Shown piece by piece: positions 17,436-28,323 of a stretch of 34,694 nucleotides of DNA. Location: contig JAGGUN010000010.1 of assembly GCA_021158465.1 (NCBI GenBank), positions 1 through 34,694 of the forward strand. Direction: 5' to 3'. Within the stretch, counting starts at the first letter, position 1. The number at the start of each line of letters is the position of its first letter. This DNA comes from a bacterium. Its GTDB lineage: Bacteria > UBP14 > UBA6098 > 4484-93. A model generated the notes under the pieces. It was not told the DNA's origin, searched no databases, and saw only the letters and a program-made list of their open reading frames with translations. A program made the position numbers and the translations under genes.

Positions 17436-17557
17436 AATCCTTGACTTTTCCACAAAATATTAACATCACAGGTCGCTTTTTACCCAAAAAGGGAAAAACT
17501 TTCTGATTTAAATTTAGCGTGAACAGATGTTTGCCCCCCAATAATGGATTAGGCTTG

Positions 17558-17573
17558 TGGTATGAAAATTGCT
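17558..17573 (+). promoter_or_regulatory. Candidate sigma-54 promoter upstream of the alternative sigma gene
   Basis: TGGTATG (17558-17564), four A residues and TTGCT (17569-17573) match the sigma-54 pattern TGGCACG-N4-TTGCW at 10 of 12 defined bases. The invariant GG and GC are separated by exactly 10 bases. The start would be near 17584, 21 bases before the ATG, and the GGAGG ribosome binding site (17593-17597) lies inside this leader. I found no good -35/-10 pair in the 169-base gap. An rpoN gene or enhancer-binding activator is not in the window. Confidence 0.5.
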
Positions 17574-17604
17574 GGTTTTTATATCGCCTTCTGGAGGAAG
17601 AGAG

Positions 17605-18342
17605 ATGAAGCCTGAGGAGAAATGGCTTTGGAGAAAATTCAAGCTGGAGAACAGCAAGGAAGCGCTGGAACGCCTCTTTGAGAGGTACATGTATCTTGTG
17701 AAATCTAGTGTTGACAGGATGTATAAAAAGTTCTCGAATTCTGTCGATAAAGAAGATTTAAGGAGTGTAGCAATGATCGGTCTGCTTGAAGCGATGAGGA
17801 ATTTTGACCCGGAGTTCGGTACCGAGTTCTCCACATTCGCTTATCCGAGGATAAACGGCGCGATGATTGATGAGCTCCGCAGGCTTGACATCTTGCCCCG
17901 AGGAGTACGCACACTCGGAAAGAAGATCCATGAGATCCAGGATGTGCAAGATGAGGATATGACACCTAATGATATAGCTTATAGACTCAAGATCTCCACA
18001 AGGGATTACGAACGGATACTTTTCTCTTATCGTGCAGGTATCCTTATGAGGTTGACCGAGCCTGTTTCTGGTGATGAAGGCTTATCGCTAGGCGATATTA
18101 TCCCCGCTGAGGGTGCTGACCAATCGAAGATACTCGACAAGAAGGAGCAGATGCGTCTCCTCAGAAAGGCGATCGAGCATCTTCCCGCTAAGGAAAGGCT
18201 GGTTGTTTCGCTATATTACTTCGAGGAAATGGCGCTCAAGAACATCGGACAGATACTGTCCGTCTCCGAATCGAGGATCTCGCAGATACATTCGAAAGCT
18301 ATAAGGGATCTAAGGGAGATCTTGAAAAGATTCTACTGTTAA
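17605..18342 (+). CDS. Alternative sigma factor of the FliA/WhiG/SigB type
   Basis: A 245-residue group 3 sigma factor without region 1.1. Region 2 spans about residues 25-95. It includes LRSVAMIGLLEAMRNFDPEFG (core binding) and FSTFAYPRINGAMIDELR (-10 recognition), followed by DILPRGVR, typical of FliA/WhiG. Region 3 is about 100-150 and region 4 about 185-245, with the helix-turn-helix IGQILSVSESRISQIHSKA. GGAGG lies 7 bases before the ATG. There is no flagellar gene, anti-sigma factor or FlgM in the window, so a motility role cannot be assumed. The next gene, a GAF sensor, is 28 bases downstream and probably in the same transcript. Confidence 0.92.
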   Translation: MKPEEKWLWRKFKLENSKEALERLFERYMYLVKSSVDRMYKKFSNSVDKEDLRSVAMIGLLEAMRNFDPEFGTEFSTFAYPRINGAMIDELRRLDILPRGVRTLGKKIHEIQDVQDEDMTPNDIAYRLKISTRDYERILFSYRAGILMRLTEPVSGDEGLSLGDIIPAEGADQSKILDKKEQMRLLRKAIEHLPAKERLVVSLYYFEEMALKNIGQILSVSESRISQIHSKAIRDLREILKRFYC

Positions 18343-18370
18343 TTCATAAACCCCTATTGGAGGAGGGAGT

Positions 18371-19189
18371 ATGGAGAAAGAAAGTATTTTGTTGCTCAAT
18401 CTTGTTGGTAAGTTCTTTGCAAACTCCTCTGACATATCTAAGGGGGCGAAGGTAATATTCCAGATTTTGAGGGAGCTTGTGGATTATGACTATGCCACGA
18501 TATTTTATTATGATAGGGAGACAGATAGCCTAAAGCACCTTGCTTATGAGGGGCAGTATATCAATCTCGTTGATGATGTCTCGTTTGGTGTGGGTGATGG
18601 TATAGCAGGATGGGTGGCGCAGAAGAACCATCCGATACTACTGTCGAATATCAAGCGGACGAAAAACAAGGAGATTCACTCTCTTCACTCATTTATGTCT
18701 ATTCCGCTCAGGCTGAACGGTAGGCTTGTCGGTGTGCTTAACATTGGGCACACGAAACCTAATGCACTTACTGTCAAGGACCTCGACACAGTGAACAATG
18801 TGATGGAAAGTATCTCTGGGCTTTTGATGAGGATGTGCAATCAGGCAACTTTGGAGAGGAAGGTTAAGAGGCTTGAGGTGCTCAACAGCTTTCTGAAGGA
18901 AAACCAGAAAGAGCTTCTTAAAAGGGGAAGAGAAAGGATGTATAAGGCGATAGGCAATCTTGTGGCACGCAATATCTCTAACCCGCTCACACTTATAGTT
19001 GGAAACGCGGAGTTTCTTATGAGGAGGCTACCCGATAAGGATAAAGAGACGAGAAAAAAACTCGCAGACATTATCGAGGCAGGCGATAAAATAGTTGAGC
19101 TGACTGAGACATTGATAAACCGACAGGCGAAACGGTCAGATTTCTATCCAAACGGTCTAAAGGATGGAAAACAACGGTCGATAAATTAG
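18371..19189 (+). CDS. GAF-domain protein with a degenerate histidine-kinase DHp helix
   Basis: A 272-residue cytoplasmic protein. The GAF domain occupies about residues 5-155 (ATIFYYDRETDSL, GVGDGIAGWVAQ, SIPLRLNGRLVGVLNIG) and probably binds a small ligand or senses redox state. A coiled coil follows (160-190). Residues 190-250 align well with a HisKA dimerisation helix pair: NLVARNISNPLTLIVGNAEF corresponds to the usual AHEINNPL motif. However, the phosphoacceptor His is Arg200 and the next Glu is Asn. No ATP-binding HATPase domain follows; the protein ends about 20 residues after the helix pair. It cannot autophosphorylate in the normal way. Its position 28 bases after the sigma gene suggests a role in controlling that sigma factor or its regulon. 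Confidence 0.85.
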   Translation: MEKESILLLNLVGKFFANSSDISKGAKVIFQILRELVDYDYATIFYYDRETDSLKHLAYEGQYINLVDDVSFGVGDGIAGWVAQKNHPILLSNIKRTKNKEIHSLHSFMSIPLRLNGRLVGVLNIGHTKPNALTVKDLDTVNNVMESISGLLMRMCNQATLERKVKRLEVLNSFLKENQKELLKRGRERMYKAIGNLVARNISNPLTLIVGNAEFLMRRLPDKDKETRKKLADIIEAGDKIVELTETLINRQAKRSDFYPNGLKDGKQRSIN

Positions 19190-19217
19190 TATACCCCCAG
19201 ACACCCAAACCCAGCCG

Positions 19218-19252
19218 GAGGCGACAGTCGGATGGATTGTCGCCTCTTTTTT
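19218..19252 (+). terminator. Rho-independent terminator of the sigma/GAF operon
   Basis: An 8-bp perfect stem, GAGGCGAC (19218-19225) with GTCGCCTC (19239-19246), encloses a 13-base loop and is followed by six T residues. The T-tract is only on the plus strand, so it stops the sigma/GAF transcript. The T-tract reaches the last bases of the opposing NYN gene. Confidence 0.9.
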
Positions 19253-19844
19253 ATTCTCCTTTTGCTTTTTTTGCCTCTGCCTTGTGAACAAGCTCTTTGT
19301 ATCTCTTCAAATCTATCGAGTACCAGCAGGAGAGAGCCACATCTTCACCTTCCTCGGGCAAAAACGAGGCATGAATAACCTTTTTACCCCGTCTGCTTAT
19401 GAACCTTATTGCAGGGATTAGGTCAGAGTCGTTTGATAGCACAACAGCAATATCGAAGCTTCCTTGAACACCATGCATCAAAAGGTCGGTTGACAAGGCA
19501 ACATCAACCCCCTTCTCTTCGCTCTTTTCTGTTCTCTCACCACAGACAGGACAGACAAAGCTCCTTTGCTTCCTCTCCTTTAAGATTACATCGTATCCAG
19601 GGAAGCGAGGGAGTGTCTTCTCGAGGAAATCCCTGACACCTGAATCGGATTCAGCCCCGGATACAGAGGCATACACATGGCAACCCTCATAAACCACCGA
19701 CTGCTGAGTTACCTCGTTCACCAACCTCTTGATGACCTCCGGTATCTGTGTCCAGTTTGGGACAAAATACTCCACACCGAGCGCCTTCTGACCGCAGATG
19801 ATGGTGTTCCAGTAGTCGATGAATATCCTCAACTTATAATCCAT
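19251..19844 (-). CDS. NYN-domain protein (PIN-like nuclease fold)
   Basis: A 197-residue NYN/DUF88 protein. The metal-binding acidic residues of the PIN-like fold are in place: FIDYWN at the N-terminus, KGVDVALSTDLL in the middle and VLSNDSDLIPAI towards the C-terminus. A single CPVC knuckle at about residues 95-98 is an insertion. Relatives are ribonucleases or RNA-processing factors (LabA, Rae1-like), so RNA cleavage is likely but the substrate is unknown. The ATG is three bases after the stop of the giant secreted protein gene, with AGGTAAGGG as ribosome binding site, so it is expressed at the tail of that transcript. Confidence 0.87.
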   Translation of the reverse strand: MDYKLRIFIDYWNTIICGQKALGVEYFVPNWTQIPEVIKRLVNEVTQQSVVYEGCHVYASVSGAESDSGVRDFLEKTLPRFPGYDVILKERKQRSFVCPVCGERTEKSEEKGVDVALSTDLLMHGVQGSFDIAVVLSNDSDLIPAIRFISRRGKKVIHASFLPEEGEDVALSCWYSIDLKRYKELVHKAEAKKAKGE

Positions 19845-19847
19845 CCC

Positions 19848-22800
19848 TTACCTCGCAAGTATAACTGTTCCGTTGCAGATAACCTTATCTTTTACCTGTA
19901 TAACATAGATATACACCCCAGGTGGGAGCTTTTTACCTGCTTTATCCGTTCCATCCCAGGAGAGTGAAAGGTCTAACATTCTCCCTTCCTGCGGCGGGAT
20001 TCTTGCTTCATACACCAACACATTTCTCATATCGAATATGGAAAGAACGGCTTCCTCCGAGTGCATATTGGGGTATGAGAAGAAGACCCTATCGTTATAG
20101 CCGTCACTGTTTGGGGAGAACGGATTTGGTCTTGCGTCACAGACAGCAACTGGTTCAATTAAGAAGTACCATTCGGCAGCTGCTATGTGGGCGTCGCAGT
20201 AGTCGGGTATATCGTATATCTGGGCTGTTATCCTCACTGTGTCTGGTAGCTCGATACCAAGAATCTCGGTGGAGATACTGAATGCGCTGTCAATAGGTGA
20301 AAATGTAACGCCTTCCTGCGGGAAGTGAAGAGCCTCACCGTTTATGTTGATTAAAATACTGGTCGGGTCGATGCCGGAGAGGTTGTCCGCCGCGAATATT
20401 GTCACCTCAGGTGTGTGGTCTCGAACCATCTGCTCCGGCTCAGGCTCAACCAGTATCAATCGGGGCGGAGAGTAATCCGTTATGTAGAACCAGGATACAG
20501 GATGCGGTATCGGATTGCCCAGCATATCGTCTGCACGAACGAGTGAAATCCGTATCGTGTCCCCATCGGACAGCTCTATCGGAACAGCAAAATACAGTGT
20601 GTCGCTCCGATAGGAAAAAATTTCCCTATCTGTCCCGAAATTAAACTCCTCACCGTTCAGGAGGATCGTTATACTGCTCGTGTCCACTCCGTTATCATCG
20701 TGTATGTAAAGGATTATCGTGTCCTGTTCACAAGCAGAGTATGCACCGTTGAACGGCGCTATAATCTCGACCGTCGGTCCGCCAGATTCTATTGTGTAGT
20801 TCCAGCAATGGCGGAGTTCGTTCGGTGAGCAGTAGTCAGGCGCATCAGAAACATCGAGGCAGACAAAGACCGTATCACCACCTGTTAGCCCGCTCAGGCA
20901 GCTGTCCTCGACATCGATAGCGGCTATCCTCTCACCGGAGGTCTCATAAGAGAGACTGAGACAGTCGGAGCCGATGAGAACCGTATCCTCTCCAACTATA
21001 AGCTGGAAGCTCGATGTATCGATTCCCGCAGGTATGTCCTCGAGCCGGAATGACAGTATGAACCCTCTTGCAGCGATGGTTGCACCCTCGGGCGGATTTA
21101 TGCTCGATATAACTGGCTCAATTAAATCAACTTGGAACTGGTAATCTAAAGTATCTTGTAAGCTGTTTCCATAAATATCTTGTGCCTCAAGAAGTTGAAC
21201 AAAAACAGTCTCGTTGTGAACCCAATCAACGGAGGGGGTAAATATCAGCGTATCGCCTGAATATTCAAGCTCGACATCGTCAATATCGAATGTGTCTCCG
21301 TTGATTGCGAGCAGGATTGTTTCTGCGTTGACCCCATCAACATCGAACAGATGAATGAGTATTCTCTGGTCATCGCAGGCAGATACCGTGTTCGGCAGAG
21401 GCTCCATCGGGTATGCGACGGGTCCACCAACGGATACGATGAAGTTTGTGCAGCTGTCGAGGATGTTGGGTGAGCACCAATCGGGTGAATCCTCAGCATA
21501 GATACAGATCGCTATCGTGTCGGCAGGTAGGACGATTCCGAGCGATTCGGGGATAAAGTAGAATGTATCACCTGTTGAGACCATTGCGTCGAGTAGATAT
21601 TCTGTGCCGTTCACTGTGAAATGCACCGTTGAGAGGTTCACACCGGAGAGCGAATCACCAAATATAAAGACGATATCCTGCAGTGTATCGTTGACGACCG
21701 GCAAAGCAGGCTCGATTATGTCGAAATAGGGGGGAGACAAGTCCATTATAAATGTTGCTCTGATAGGTTCGGCAAGCGGTGCACCATAGATATCATCGGC
21801 GGCTGACAAGAAGATCTCAACTGTATCACCGTCTTCCCAAGCGGGGGATGGGGTAAATGTCAACTCCGGTTCATCGAATGTTAGCTGTGATGAGTCGGTT
21901 GTGTATTCGACATCGTTGACGAACAATCTTATCGTGGAACCATCGACACCGTCTATGTCGTTAATCTCTATTATGACAAATTGGCTCTCCGGCTCGCAGG
22001 CAACGAAGCTCGAATCGGGGTACTGGATGAGTGTTGCTTCCGGACCGAACAGCCTAACATAGAACTCCCAGCAGTATTCATCGGACATATTTGGACCGCA
22101 GGTATCCGGCATATCCGAGACAGGCTCGAGGCAGACCATCACAGTATCACCATCATTGAAGACAATTCCTGCATCCTCAGGGTCAAAGTAGAGCGTATCG
22201 CCGGAGTATGTCAATGCCGGCGATGTTATGTCGAACGGTGTCCCGTTAATAATAACTGTGATCGTCGACTCGTCCACTCCGCTCCCCGAATCGGTTATCA
22301 CAATCGATATTATCTGGAGCGAATCAGTTGATATACCACCATCGATAGGGGATTCGGCTGAATAGACCGGCGGCTGTCTGTCAACGAAGTATCTCCATAA
22401 GACGCTTGACGATAGCGGATTGCCGAGTATATCATCCGCCCGAATAAGTGAAACATCGACCGTATCGTTATCCTCGAACGGGATATCGGGAGTGAACACA
22501 AGGAGCGAATCGTCCACCCAGGAGAGTTCGCTGTCTCCCCAGTGATATTCTGTTCCGTTGACCTCAAGGATGATAGTGGATGTGTCGACACCGTTCGAGT
22601 CTGTTATGGATATGATTATCTCGTCCTCATCGCAGGCAAAGAAGATGCTCGGAGCAGGTGATACGATGCTTGCAACAGGTCCGGTCGACTCGATGAAAAA
22701 TGTCCAGCAACTGTCGAGTTCGTTCGGCTCGCATATGCAGGGAGAATCCTCGGCGTGAACGCAAACGGTAAATGTATCGCCACCGTGGAGATCGATTCCC

Positions 22801-25800
22801 GCGGCTATAATATCAACTGTCACAGAATCCCCTGCGATATCCACAAATGCCGAGCTGGATGGGAACAGTGTTCCGTTGACCTCTACTGTAAAATCGCTGA
22901 CGCCCGAGAGCGAATCGAGCAGGTTAAACGAGATGAATGTATCGATCGTTGCAATCATTCCAACAGGGGAGATATTCCAGATTACAGGAGGCGTCAAATC
23001 GATATAGAATTCCCTGCATACCGGTGCATCCTCCAGTTCGTTTCCGATTATATCCGATGCTGAGATAAGGCATACATCAAGCGTCTCAGCGTCCTCCCAG
23101 AGAATAGAAGGTGTAAATCTCAGGTTTGTCCCGGCTCCCAAGGAAAGTTCGGAGGATGAGAGCGTGAAACTATCGACGCCTGATACCGATGATGTTATCT
23201 CGAGCAGGATCGTCGATGTGTCAACGCCCTCTTCATCGTATATCTCGATGAGAATGTTCTGGTCCTCGCAGCTTGAGTAGCAGTCAGCAGGCGGTGTGAC
23301 AAAACTTGCTGTCGGTCCACCAGGCATTATGAAGAATGTTGTGCAGTCGGTTCCGATGTTCGGAGCGCAGGTGTCAGGTGTATCCTGCGATGTGATGCAG
23401 ATAACGACAGAATCCCCACCTATGAAATGGTATCCGAACGAGTCGAGGTTCACCGAAAGCTCGGCACCATCCCAGAATATTCCGGAATGGGTTATCTCGT
23501 AGCTATCTCCGTTGATGTTTATCTCGAATGCGGTCCCATCGACACCGGAGAGCGTATCCTCAATCTGCAATCTAACGGTTGGAGACGGGTCTGTGATTGT
23601 GTCCATATCCGTGGGGAAGCTCGAGGTAAGAACCGGTGGCTCGAGGTCGAGCGTGAATGTTATACAGACAGGCGCAGATATTCCGTTTCCGACAGAATCC
23701 GATGCGGATGTAACGCAGGCACGAACGACATCACCTGATGACCATAGACCAGCCGGTGTCCAGACAAATTCTGCTCCCGTGAAAGATAATCCGGTAGAAT
23801 CGGTGGTATAATCCGTTCCGTTTATGTTTATCACAACGCTCGACGGGTCAACACCGTGTATATCTGAAATGGTGAATATCACTCCTTGGTCATCGCAGGC
23901 AGAGAACCAGCCATCGTGAGGTGTGAGTATTACAACATCGGGCGGCATCATATCCACAATGAACGAGTCGCAGAAAACCCCCTCATTGGGTGGGCAATAA
24001 TCCGGGTCATCGCGGAAGTTCAAACAATAGACAACGGTATCACCATCGGAAAATGCCTCTGTCGGTGTGAACTCAAAACAGGAATCGGTAAATGTTGCCC
24101 CTGTATTTATTGAATGTTCAACGCCGTTGACCGTAATCGCTATGACGGAGTCTACACCAGCAATCGAATCGAATAGACAGAAGCTTATCCTGGGATGCTC
24201 ATCGGCAACAATATCTCCCCATTCTGGGGAATTGGAATAAACCGCAGGTGGCGTCAGGTCAACAATGAACTGTCCACAGACAGGGGATAGAAGCATATGT
24301 CCGAGCGTATCGGCAAGCTTGATAAGGCAGAAGCTGATAGAATCTCCATCAGTATAACTTTCTATTGGAGAGAAGATTAACTCTCCTGTACTAAAGTCAT
24401 ATGTTAAATTATCATCATAACATCTGGAAGTATCAGCTGATACGACAAATATTATCGACGATGTATCCACCCCGTTCTCGCTTGTTATCAAAAGTATAAT
24501 CCCCTGGTCGTCGCAGGCGGTTATTGCCCCGATGAACGGCTCGATTATCTCTGCCTCGGGTCGCTCGAGGTTGACGATGAAGCTCCAGCAGGAATCGAGA
24601 ACATTCGGACCGCAGTAGTCGGGTGAATCATAAGCAACTATGCAGACCTGCACCGTATCGTTTGAGGAAAAGGCGAGTCCTGAATCCTCGCAGGAAAACA
24701 CTACCTCGCTGTCCGATGGCAGAACATCGAATGTATCCGTTCCGTTGATGACAAGATGCACCTCGGCAAGTCCGCTTATCCTGTCCGTTATGAAGAATGA
24801 GATATCCGGTGACGCCTCCGATACAACACCCTCGGGCAGGATGCCCCATACGACAGGCGGTGAGTAGTCGATAGTGAATGAGTATATCAGTGGCTCGGGC
24901 AGGTCTGTCCCGTACATATCGTGTGCGTGAGCAAGGTTCACATCGACCGTTTCCCCATCGCTGAAGAACCCGGCAGGTGGCGAGAATACGAGTTCGTTCG
25001 TCTCCGAACTGTATGTAAGATAGGCGCTCCTGATTGTGTAAGGTGCTCCGTTGACATAGAGCAGGATGCTATCTGGCTCTATCTCTGCGACTGTTCCCTC
25101 GAGGTGGATGATAATTACCTGCGGGTCGCAGGCGGAGATTGAATCAGGCAACGGATTGACAGGATATGCGAACGGACCATCGAGCGTCACGACAAAGCTC
25201 CAGCAGGTGTCAGAGATGTTCGGACCGCAGTACATAGCCAGGTCACCTGCCTCGATGCAAACCGTGACTGTCTCCGTCGAATCGATTATCACACCGGTAA
25301 GCGTAAGCAGGCTATCCCTGAACGAGTACTCACCGGGGGATAAAGTTCTACCATTGACTGTAATTACGAAGAGCGATGGGTCAACCCCCGCGAGATTATC
25401 GGTTACATTAAGATGTATGCCCGGTGTTGATGTCCTGATAACGGTATCGGGTGGAGGATACAGGTTCGAGAAGTCGGGTCCCGACAGGTCGACATAGAAT
25501 GTCCAGGAAAGCGGCAGGCTGTCTGCCGGGACACCGTGGACATTGGAAAGTGTGAGGAGTGACACATTTACCGTATCGCCGTCTCTAAACCCTGGAGCTG
25601 GCGGTGTAAATATTAGAAGTGTATCAAAGAGGCTCAGGTTCGCCCCGATGGTATAGATTACCCTGTTGACAGATAGGCTTATGCTTGACGGGTCTATATC
25701 GGATAGCGTGTCGATAACAGCAATTATTATGCTCGAATCCCTGCAGGATGTCACGGAGTCGGGCATCGGGCGGACGATATAAACCATAGGTATAGAATGG

Positions 25801-28283
25801 AATACCGTCCAGGTTATGCAGGTGTCGAGTTGATTGTCCTCGCGGCAGTATGTCGTGTAGTCGAGTGCCGAGACGCAGATTTCGACCTCGGTTGTATCGA
25901 ACCAGTTTATTCCGAGCGTCACCGGGTCGATGATAACGGAGTCGTTGCGGAATGTGATGAGCCTCGAGTAGTCCACGCCGTTTATTGTTACCTCGATTGT
26001 AGATGGGTCGAGACCTGCGATAGAGTCCTCGAGGATGAACGAGATAACATCGAGCGAGTCCATAATCGTATCACCTGGCGTGATGCTGAAATCATAGACC
26101 ACGGGCGGGTCGAAGTCGGTAACGAAGCTCCAGCAGAACGGCAGTGGTGCTGCGGGGGAACCGAGCGTATCCTCCGCATGGATCAGACAGAATGTGTATG
26201 TCTCACCGGAGATATATCTACCGGTTGGCGGATGGTATGCAAGTGTATCATTTGTGTATGTCAGATTAGCTCCCAGTGTAAGCGTCTCTGGGGGCAAGGC
26301 ATCCTGTTGAATTGAGACGAGGATGCTTATTGGGTTCACCGGCGCCGTTATACCCTGAAGAATCATAGAGATCTCCTGGTCGACGCAGGCGACGAAACTG
26401 TTGCTGTCGGGTGTGATAATCTCCATATTGAATGTCGGAAGCAGCACCTCGACATCATCGATTGTGTCCCTTGTTCCACCGAAATTGCTCCCTGCAGGAC
26501 CTGTGGAGTTGGTTAGTCCAACCGGATTGTCGAATAGACCTTCGACACCATAATCGATATCAACTGTGAATGTGATAACAACGGAATCCTCCGGCACCAT
26601 CTCGAATGTCCCGAATGTCAGCAGGTTGTCCCCCGGCGACGGGTCGACAACGGATGTCCTGATGGCTCCGTATATCTCGTAAGTCGGTGGTGTCGTGCCG
26701 AAATGGAACCCTGGTGGCAATGTATCCGTTATCGTCACAGAGAACGAAGAATCTCCCCTCGTCTGGTGGATGACGAGCCGGTATGTCGCCTGTGTCCCTG
26801 AGATAACGGTTGGTGTCAGCGAATATTTTCTTATATCGTATTCCGGATTGATTATATCCAAGTTCTGACCCGCGACCGTGGCGTAGCTTGCGTAGTTCGA
26901 GTCGAAGCCGTACATAGCGAGCAGGAATGATGTGTCCGCCTCGATTATATGCGAGCCGTCGGTGACCCTTATCTTCGCCCCTCTATACGGCAAAACAGGA
27001 ATATCGAACCAGCTGACTCCACCGGGTGCTCCACCATCTATCAACAGGCTACCCTCATGACCTGTTGGGATGGTTACATTGATGTAATCCCACTGATAGC
27101 CGTTTGGGACGAGGAATATATATCTTGGTGCATACTGTTCGATAGGAGAGATAAGCATAAATGCTGGGTCGCCGATGGGGTTGACACCGAGGGCATCCAC
27201 GAGCTGCGCACCGACCATATACTGGGCAACGAGTATCGGCTTGTCGGATGTTATAACCCTCGGCTCCTCGAGTAGCGGGTCGGTGCAGGAGCAGCTGATG
27301 AGCAGACAGGAGCAAGTGCCACCGTTCAGTTCCCAGTATTCACCCTCATCGAGGGTCACATTTATCGTCGATGCTCCGTCCTGAACGGTGATATGCGTAT
27401 TGTCTTCGCTTGCGAGCACCCGCAGAACATCGCCTGTCCAGGAAGCTCTCTGCTTCACTGGAAAGACGATAAAATTCTCACCCCAGGCAGTCAGAGGTGG
27501 CATCATCTCGATAAGATAGTCCGCAGCCCATATGTTGTCCGGGACAACAGCCTCCGTGTTCCCTGATATAACCCCTATCGGCTTGTCGGATGTTATACGT
27601 GTTCCCGTTAGATCCACCTCCGGTCCAAGAAGTGGGCTATGTGCCAGAATCTGATATGTCTGATACTGGTCGAGCGTGATGCTGAATGGAGTTCCAGCAG
27701 GATGTCCACCTTCCGTGTCAGCCGTTGGTGTTATTGTAATATGCGTATTGTCCTCTGTGGCAACGATGGCAAGCATCGATGGTCCCCTGTCTCTGGCGAG
27801 TGGGCTAATTGTTTGGAGGTTCGCCTGATAGCACATCGTGTAGTATTCCGTTCCAAGGGATGGAACGGGGAACAGGAGTGCCATATCGTTTGTCGCCCCA
27901 GGAGATTTAAACGAGAGGAAATATGCCGATATCAGATGGTCGGACTGAATCCTTAAACCCTTGTTTTCAACTGTTTCTGTGGTGGTTATCCAGAATGACG
28001 AGTCTATTTCGATGGTAAAGGTGCCATTTGCCGGGATGTTGAACGGAACGCTGTATGTGCCATCGAAGTTGCGCACCGTTCCGGTCGTGTTATAAGACGA
28101 GGTTAGTATCAGGAGCCCAGAGCGCGAGAGCGTATCTGGCAGAGAGTCTCTGAAGGCGTTTGCAGGATAGCAGAAGAAAAAATCCGTCCCAAGGTTGGTG
28201 AAGCTTGCATCGAGCTCGCCCACCAGAACCAATAGAAGCACCACCATAAGGATGACTTTGCTTTTCAATTTGCTTCTCCTCAT
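19848..28283 (-). CDS. Giant secreted multidomain protein: IgGFc-binding-like head, ten paired Ig-like modules, gliding/T9SS-type tail
   Basis: About 2811 residues from the ATG at 28283; residue numbers here count from an in-frame GTG at 28304 (+7). The ATG is preferred because AAGGA precedes it and the promoter start (about 28314) would leave only 9 bases before the GTG. A signal peptide covers residues 14-34. Residues 35-490 resemble the IgGFc-binding N-terminal domain, with ITSDKPIG (237) and ITSDKPIL (351). Residues 490-622 look like a DUF11-type domain (TDTLPPGFHFG). Residues 627-2716 form ten A-B module pairs of about 209 residues, rich in DGDTV strands and cysteines. The tail (2722-2818), with FSPNSDGYND and WDGTDKAGKKLPPGVYIYVI, resembles gliding-motility/T9SS or FlgD-like C-terminal domains used for export and surface anchoring. 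A surface adhesin or structural fibre is the likely role, by inference. Confidence 0.9.
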   Translation of the reverse strand: MRRSKLKSKVILMVVLLLVLVGELDASFTNLGTDFFFCYPANAFRDSLPDTLSRSGLLILTSSYNTTGTVRNFDGTYSVPFNIPANGTFTIEIDSSFWITTTETVENKGLRIQSDHLISAYFLSFKSPGATNDMALLFPVPSLGTEYYTMCYQANLQTISPLARDRGPSMLAIVATEDNTHITITPTADTEGGHPAGTPFSITLDQYQTYQILAHSPLLGPEVDLTGTRITSDKPIGVISGNTEAVVPDNIWAADYLIEMMPPLTAWGENFIVFPVKQRASWTGDVLRVLASEDNTHITVQDGASTINVTLDEGEYWELNGGTCSCLLISCSCTDPLLEEPRVITSDKPILVAQYMVGAQLVDALGVNPIGDPAFMLISPIEQYAPRYIFLVPNGYQWDYINVTIPTGHEGSLLIDGGAPGGVSWFDIPVLPYRGAKIRVTDGSHIIEADTSFLLAMYGFDSNYASYATVAGQNLDIINPEYDIRKYSLTPTVISGTQATYRLVIHQTRGDSSFSVTITDTLPPGFHFGTTPPTYEIYGAIRTSVVDPSPGDNLLTFGTFEMVPEDSVVITFTVDIDYGVEGLFDNPVGLTNSTGPAGSNFGGTRDTIDDVEVLLPTFNMEIITPDSNSFVACVDQEISMILQGITAPVNPISILVSIQQDALPPETLTLGANLTYTNDTLAYHPPTGRYISGETYTFCLIHAEDTLGSPAAPLPFCWSFVTDFDPPVVYDFSITPGDTIMDSLDVISFILEDSIAGLDPSTIEVTINGVDYSRLITFRNDSVIIDPVTLGINWFDTTEVEICVSALDYTTYCREDNQLDTCITWTVFHSIPMVYIVRPMPDSVTSCRDSSIIIAVIDTLSDIDPSSISLSVNRVIYTIGANLSLFDTLLIFTPPAPGFRDGDTVNVSLLTLSNVHGVPADSLPLSWTFYVDLSGPDFSNLYPPPDTVIRTSTPGIHLNVTDNLAGVDPSLFVITVNGRTLSPGEYSFRDSLLTLTGVIIDSTETVTVCIEAGDLAMYCGPNISDTCWSFVVTLDGPFAYPVNPLPDSISACDPQVIIIHLEGTVAEIEPDSILLYVNGAPYTIRSAYLTYSSETNELVFSPPAGFFSDGETVDVNLAHAHDMYGTDLPEPLIYSFTIDYSPPVVWGILPEGVVSEASPDISFFITDRISGLAEVHLVINGTDTFDVLPSDSEVVFSCEDSGLAFSSNDTVQVCIVAYDSPDYCGPNVLDSCWSFIVNLERPEAEIIEPFIGAITACDDQGIILLITSENGVDTSSIIFVVSADTSRCYDDNLTYDFSTGELIFSPIESYTDGDSISFCLIKLADTLGHMLLSPVCGQFIVDLTPPAVYSNSPEWGDIVADEHPRISFCLFDSIAGVDSVIAITVNGVEHSINTGATFTDSCFEFTPTEAFSDGDTVVYCLNFRDDPDYCPPNEGVFCDSFIVDMMPPDVVILTPHDGWFSACDDQGVIFTISDIHGVDPSSVVININGTDYTTDSTGLSFTGAEFVWTPAGLWSSGDVVRACVTSASDSVGNGISAPVCITFTLDLEPPVLTSSFPTDMDTITDPSPTVRLQIEDTLSGVDGTAFEININGDSYEITHSGIFWDGAELSVNLDSFGYHFIGGDSVVICITSQDTPDTCAPNIGTDCTTFFIMPGGPTASFVTPPADCYSSCEDQNILIEIYDEEGVDTSTILLEITSSVSGVDSFTLSSSELSLGAGTNLRFTPSILWEDAETLDVCLISASDIIGNELEDAPVCREFYIDLTPPVIWNISPVGMIATIDTFISFNLLDSLSGVSDFTVEVNGTLFPSSSAFVDIAGDSVTVDIIAAGIDLHGGDTFTVCVHAEDSPCICEPNELDSCWTFFIESTGPVASIVSPAPSIFFACDEDEIIISITDSNGVDTSTIILEVNGTEYHWGDSELSWVDDSLLVFTPDIPFEDNDTVDVSLIRADDILGNPLSSSVLWRYFVDRQPPVYSAESPIDGGISTDSLQIISIVITDSGSGVDESTITVIINGTPFDITSPALTYSGDTLYFDPEDAGIVFNDGDTVMVCLEPVSDMPDTCGPNMSDEYCWEFYVRLFGPEATLIQYPDSSFVACEPESQFVIIEINDIDGVDGSTIRLFVNDVEYTTDSSQLTFDEPELTFTPSPAWEDGDTVEIFLSAADDIYGAPLAEPIRATFIMDLSPPYFDIIEPALPVVNDTLQDIVFIFGDSLSGVNLSTVHFTVNGTEYLLDAMVSTGDTFYFIPESLGIVLPADTIAICIYAEDSPDWCSPNILDSCTNFIVSVGGPVAYPMEPLPNTVSACDDQRILIHLFDVDGVNAETILLAINGDTFDIDDVELEYSGDTLIFTPSVDWVHNETVFVQLLEAQDIYGNSLQDTLDYQFQVDLIEPVISSINPPEGATIAARGFILSFRLEDIPAGIDTSSFQLIVGEDTVLIGSDCLSLSYETSGERIAAIDVEDSCLSGLTGGDTVFVCLDVSDAPDYCSPNELRHCWNYTIESGGPTVEIIAPFNGAYSACEQDTIILYIHDDNGVDTSSITILLNGEEFNFGTDREIFSYRSDTLYFAVPIELSDGDTIRISLVRADDMLGNPIPHPVSWFYITDYSPPRLILVEPEPEQMVRDHTPEVTIFAADNLSGIDPTSILININGEALHFPQEGVTFSPIDSAFSISTEILGIELPDTVRITAQIYDIPDYCDAHIAAAEWYFLIEPVAVCDARPNPFSPNSDGYNDRVFFSYPNMHSEEAVLSIFDMRNVLVYEARIPPQEGRMLDLSLSWDGTDKAGKKLPPGVYIYVIQVKDKVICNGTVILAR
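20157..26426 (-). repeat. Ten tandem coding units of about 628 bases
   Basis: Each unit codes for two different Ig-like modules. Module A starts with a TP..ACDDQ-like strand and contains GVDxSTIxLxVNG. Its first cysteines are at residues 640, 854, 1059, 1264, 1470, 1679, 1891, 2103, 2310 and 2525, giving a mean step of 209. Module B starts PPVxxxxxP, contains DSxSGVD and ends with a DxPDYCxPNxxDSCW-like loop. Copies are clearly diverged in DNA and protein, so the array is old. Confidence 0.9.
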
Positions 28284-28302
28284 ATTCCTTAATAGAGAAA
28301 TC

Positions 28303-28323
28303 ACTTGTTATTTTACAACAAGT
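28303..28323. promoter_or_regulatory. Inverted repeat, possible operator
   Basis: ACTTGTT (28303-28309) and AACAAGT (28317-28323) are perfect 7-base inverted arms with a 7-base centre. The site covers the predicted transcription start of the giant gene and the -35 of the divergent promoter, a position suited to a dimeric repressor. A second, shorter palindrome, TGACT-AA-AGTCA (28337-28348), covers the -35 of the giant gene promoter. Confidence 0.45.

Follow-up and report, generated by a model that had tools for sequence, protein, structure and literature searches.

The window analysed here, a 34,694-nt stretch of DNA, carries at 17605..18342 (+ strand) the gene for a FliA/WhiG-family sigma factor of 245 aa. 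It is followed, 28 bases past the sigma stop codon at 18342, by a second gene (18371..19189, + strand) encoding a 272-aa protein in which a GAF domain is joined through a signalling helix to a two-helix DHp segment; we refer to this protein as GAF-DHp. An intrinsic terminator (19217..19253, + strand), consisting of a 13-bp hairpin at 19217-19247 and a T-run (-23.6 kcal/mol, z=-4.8), closes the pair. Both the 28-base interval and the strong terminator had been described in an earlier note on this DNA and are confirmed, and fliA and the GAF-DHp gene probably form one transcription unit. Farther along, on the minus strand at 19848-28304, a gene encodes a secreted protein of 2818 aa that has an IgGFc-binding-type domain and many repeats and carries a CHU_C type IX secretion signal.

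The sigma factor scores 203.8 bits against TIGR02479 (cut-off 189.6 bits), has intact regions 2 and 4 by Pfam, and has a conserved region 4.2 (SESRxSQIHS). The TTG start given by a mechanical list of open reading frames was replaced by the ATG at 17605, which is preceded by the Shine-Dalgarno (SD) sequence GGAGG. Region 2.4 reads LDILPRG in this species and in its congener, and so departs from the usual DWxPRS, a motif that is common in the FliA family rather than strictly required, and from which several other aligned FliA proteins also depart. Because region 2.4 is without the usual Trp, the -10 preference of this FliA may differ from the usual one.

For GAF-DHp, Pfam gave a GAF_2 match (E=6e-16) and a HisKA match just under the cut-off (25.6 vs 26.9), and no HATPase_c domain. 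In an AlphaFold2 model (mean pLDDT 77) a GAF fold is followed by a long helix and then by a DHp hairpin of two helices, and the chain ends after the second DHp helix; among solved structures the closest are GAF domains, one of them a cAMP-binding GAF and another that of the NifA-like activator Nlh1. In the window's genus the DHp motif reads ARNISNPL (the window protein) or ANNISDPL, and the His of the NHEINNPL type is missing. Because both catalytic requirements of a kinase, the ATPase domain and the phospho-acceptor His, are missing, GAF-DHp can act only by contact and not as a kinase. The term "GAF pseudo-kinase" used earlier needs correction: GAF-DHp is a "half" kinase and not a full-length pseudo-kinase. 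At 19158-19184, in the end of its gene and directly 5' of the terminator hairpin, there is a sigma-28-like TAAA-N15-GTCGATAA that is conserved in the congener and that could mark the start of a very short RNA or be a coincidence.

Conservation of the gene pair

The sole other genome of the genus, "candidate division Zixibacteria bacterium 4484_93" (G001; NATO01000048.1, contig C109), is 80% complete. It contains both genes in the same order and with the same neighbours, at 85% (fliA) and 82% (GAF) identity, so that the pair is kept together in the only known congener. The dN/dS ratios are 0.12 for fliA and 0.15 for the GAF gene, and neighbours such as lon and pcm give 0.06-0.14. Given such low ratios, near those of neighbouring housekeeping genes, the sequence comparison indicates that the pair is under purifying selection and is not decaying.

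A probable sigma-54 promoter in front of fliA

Upstream of fliA, TGGTATGAAAATTGCT at 17558-17573 (+ strand) has the form of a sigma-54 -24/-12 promoter, TGGTATG-N4-TTGCT, with the GG at 17559-17560 and the GC at 17571-17572. Exactly 10 bases separate the two, confirming the GG-N10-GC reported in the earlier note. The element lies 31 bp 5' of the fliA ATG and is the single exact match to TGGYAYGN4TTGCW in the whole window; the chance of an exact match is about 8e-5 per 170-nt intergenic strand. Transcription from sigma-54 promoters starts about 12 bases past the -12 element, and the expected fliA leader, with ATG 17605 as start codon, is about 20 nt long.

Alignment of the 169-bp spacer with that of the congener showed three identical runs of at least 18 bases (P ~6e-4). 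These are a 20-bp block about 100 bp 5' of the -24 element (17436..17455), a 19-bp block that takes in most of the -24/-12 element (17554-17572), and an 18-bp block covering the expected transcription start and part of the ribosome-binding site (17578..17595), all on the + strand. The GG-N10-GC is thus identical in the sole known relative; the 15-base promoter core is identical throughout and the remaining spacer is 73% identical (P ~0.01), these figures referring to two aligned genomes, with one relative known to have the pair. The 17436-17455 block is a possible activator (enhancer) site for sigma-54. No inverted repeat was found inside it and no copy of it near the other sigma-54 sites of the genome, and a search for an activator site common to the genome's sigma-54 promoters found none.

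The source genome (G000; 2.04 Mb, 97.6% complete) has the machinery such a promoter calls for, whose presence had been left to be checked: rpoN was found (E=1e-54), together with nine strong sigma-54 activator domains. A search of this genome with the slightly looser pattern TGGYAYRN4TTGCW gave nine exact matches, and the reversed control gave five. When the contexts were read, six of the nine clearly, and one more probably, lay 40-80 bp 5' of a co-oriented start codon. If about 5% of the genome lies in this 40-80 bp zone, an estimate from about 2000 genes, the binomial probability of the association is about 2e-8 for seven of nine and about 1e-6 for six of nine. The genes behind the exact matches include two pilin-like genes with N-methylation signals, Hsp20-DnaK, genes for short or secreted proteins, and fliA. 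Because exact matches cluster before gene starts genome-wide, the fliA site most likely belongs to a functioning set of sigma-54 promoters. At loci L095, L098 and L103, sigma-54-type promoters were seen immediately 5' of type IV pilin-like genes, and the promoter of the pilin-like L095/L098 gene is conserved in the congener.

It could be argued that the match in front of fliA arose by chance and that the gene is transcribed from a sigma-70-type promoter, given that only two genomes could be aligned and that the longest identical run in the spacer, taken alone, is not unusual (P=0.11). Against this stand the exact consensus, the correct spacing and the closeness to the start codon, as well as the presence of rpoN and activators and the strong association of the other exact matches with gene starts, and we regard a chance match as very improbable. 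The cascade from sigma-54 to sigma-28 proposed in the earlier note is supported genome-wide, and none of the three conditions that the note named as refuting its reading held.

Absence of flagellar genes and distribution of FliA

The earlier note had seen no flagellar, FlgM or anti-sigma gene. This holds genome-wide for FlhA, FliG and FlgM, none of which was found in G000 or G001, although the FlgM model (PF04316) is weak for divergent members and finds none in G069 either, a flagellated genome. Fifteen further genomes of the class were searched for FlhA and FliG and have neither, and among the 17 genomes of the class FliA is restricted to the window's genus. Because the class-mates are without both FliA and flagella, horizontal transfer of the pair as a small unit is as possible, on distribution, as its retention after vertical loss of the flagellum. 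Transfer is also consistent with the long stem branch (1.6) in the FliA tree, but that branch, together with weak support, gives no firm placement with a donor or sister. Moreover, in all the other GAF-DHp/fliA loci found, several genes intervene between the two, and no two-gene donor unit is known. On the whole, we consider transfer rather unlikely.

Another genome (G024; locus L070, C16:1-10894) also keeps fliA without a detected FlhA. By eye, csrA- and fliW-like genes are present on its fliA contig, and its FliA groups in the tree with that of a Zixibacteriota MAG.

GAF-DHp homologues in other genera

Nine distinct homologues with the GAF-DHp layout were found in other genera (G066, G069, L108-L114), mostly of the FCB group; the sources include Neomarinimicrobiota, Cloacimonadota and a Zixibacteriota MAG. 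Like the window protein, those of Neomarinimicrobiota, Cloacimonadota and the Zixibacteriota MAG combine GAF and HisKA, have no ATPase domain and are encoded near fliA. Unlike it, they keep the phospho-acceptor His: the motif NHEIN(N/S)PL is present in all nine homologues and is lost in the window's genus alone. In each of the nine loci fliA lies a few genes 5' of the GAF-DHp gene, and most of the loci lie within flagellar operons (flhA, flhF, flhG, fliA, ... flgF, flgG).

The usual neighbour of GAF-DHp in these genera is a two-component sensor, which adjoins it in seven of the nine loci (four Pfam-checked). In G069 and five Neomarinimicrobiota/FCB loci, a PAS sensor kinase with a HATPase domain directly precedes GAF-DHp, as judged by Pfam in three of the six and by length and position in the rest; in the Zixibacteriota MAG, GAF-DHp is followed directly by a gene for a PAS-GAF-HisKA protein. 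No description of the link between GAF-DHp and fliA was found in the open-licence literature, and the GAF-DHp proteins without an ATPase domain, whose genes accompany fliA in several phyla of the FCB group, apparently form a little-described family. Another type of "half kinase", REC-PAS-HisKA without an ATPase domain, was seen in flagellar loci at L117:10386-11462 and L115:4251-5312 (Pfam-checked for L117 only).

Search for FliA-dependent promoters

With the FliA promoter consensus TAAA-N15-GCCGATAA, one-mismatch matches in G000 numbered 21 compared to 3 in the control, most of them inside genes. Two-mismatch matches were in modest excess over the reversed control, at least 205 vs at least 136 in G000 and at least 137 vs at least 107 in G001. 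Definition of the regulon by consensus was dropped, exact and one-mismatch matches being mostly intragenic. One intergenic candidate, TTAAATAAAAACGGGTAAAGCCGATAA (G000:C4:71057-71083), is co-oriented with the gene for an NtrC-type regulator and ends 17 bp before its ATG; a second intergenic candidate precedes an HDOD gene. The placement of these sites would fit direct control of signalling genes by FliA, with a feedback loop to sigma-54 through the NtrC-type regulator. However, one or two intergenic matches to the consensus are expected by chance, and searches of the 80%-complete congener turned up an orthologue of neither gene. Such control is, in our judgement, unlikely.

Discussion

The fliA/GAF-DHp pair is probably what remains, as a regulatory core, of a flagellar cluster that was lost; it would serve a non-flagellar task and would still be controlled by sigma-54. 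The pair is read as a regulatory remnant because both of its genes are under selection and because both families occur together downstream of flhA, flhF and flhG in flagellates of other phyla. We picture an NtrC-type activator that would switch on the fliA/GAF-DHp unit through RNA polymerase bearing sigma-54, after which FliA would direct RNA polymerase to TAAA-N15-GCCGATAA-type promoters of non-flagellar genes. More tentatively, GAF-DHp may be a dimeric sensor of a small ligand that has no enzymatic activity and works by protein contact, using its helical DHp part; ancestrally it would have acted on the two-component sensor encoded beside it, which would feed the sigma-54 step. The suggestion that the cascade is "self-contained" found no support: its activator and its regulon are located outside this locus.

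The earlier note had proposed a different role for GAF-DHp, in which it binds FliA, gates it in response to a ligand and takes the place of FlgM as anti-sigma factor. The adjacency of fliA and GAF-DHp and their joint conservation in two species would be expected under direct gating, as would the fliA linkage in nine further loci, the failure to find FlgM, and the loss of the phospho-acceptor His, which implies action by contact. No direct support for gating was found, however. In the relatives several genes separate fliA from GAF-DHp, which instead sits beside a two-component sensor; the absence of FlgM is not firm, given the divergent members that the model misses; and the flagellate G066 carries FlgM as well as GAF-DHp, so that in flagellated relatives GAF-DHp is no FlgM replacement. 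Direct gating of FliA is accordingly unlikely, and somewhat more so is the specific version in which a ligand-sensing "half kinase" without the phospho-acceptor has come to regulate an orphan sigma-28 directly and independently of phosphorylation, in place of FlgM. Since GAF-DHp was ancestrally linked to a two-component sensor, action on the two-component/sigma-54 side is the likelier, though the protein may also act directly on FliA.

Returning to the pair as a retained regulatory core, several known systems are comparable. An orphan FliA alone is common: in one survey, 41% of the non-motile genomes gave hits to FliA (PMC12199754). As in Chlamydia trachomatis, there is here no flagellum, a FliA-family sigma factor is kept with sigma-54 apparently above sigma-28, and no anti-sigma factor is known; C. 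trachomatis, however, keeps FlhA/FliI-like type III genes and AtoS/AtoC (PMC10597470), whereas the window's genus has no FlhA and pairs fliA with a GAF-DHp gene. Legionella oakridgensis likewise keeps FliA without the rest of the flagellar regulon, but in that species FlgM alone is retained with it (reviewed in PMC5655016), while here no FlgM was detected and the neighbour is GAF-DHp. In non-sporulating Rubrobacter, the flagellar-clade sigma factor WhiG is predicted, with start-site mapping, to control type IV pili, a non-flagellar task such as is probable here, and the sensor is the c-di-GMP-binding anti-sigma factor RsiG (PMC8325347); in the window's genus the putative sensor role falls to GAF-DHp, and sigma-54 lies upstream. 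What distinguishes the present case from the known cases of orphan FliA is the coupled GAF-DHp gene.

In sum, the locus offers a second case, unrelated to that of Chlamydia, in which sigma-54 apparently stands above an orphan sigma-28 after loss of the flagellum. It also points to the apparently little-described fliA-linked GAF-DHp family of several FCB-group phyla, and the pair makes testable what flagellar regulators do once the flagellum is lost.
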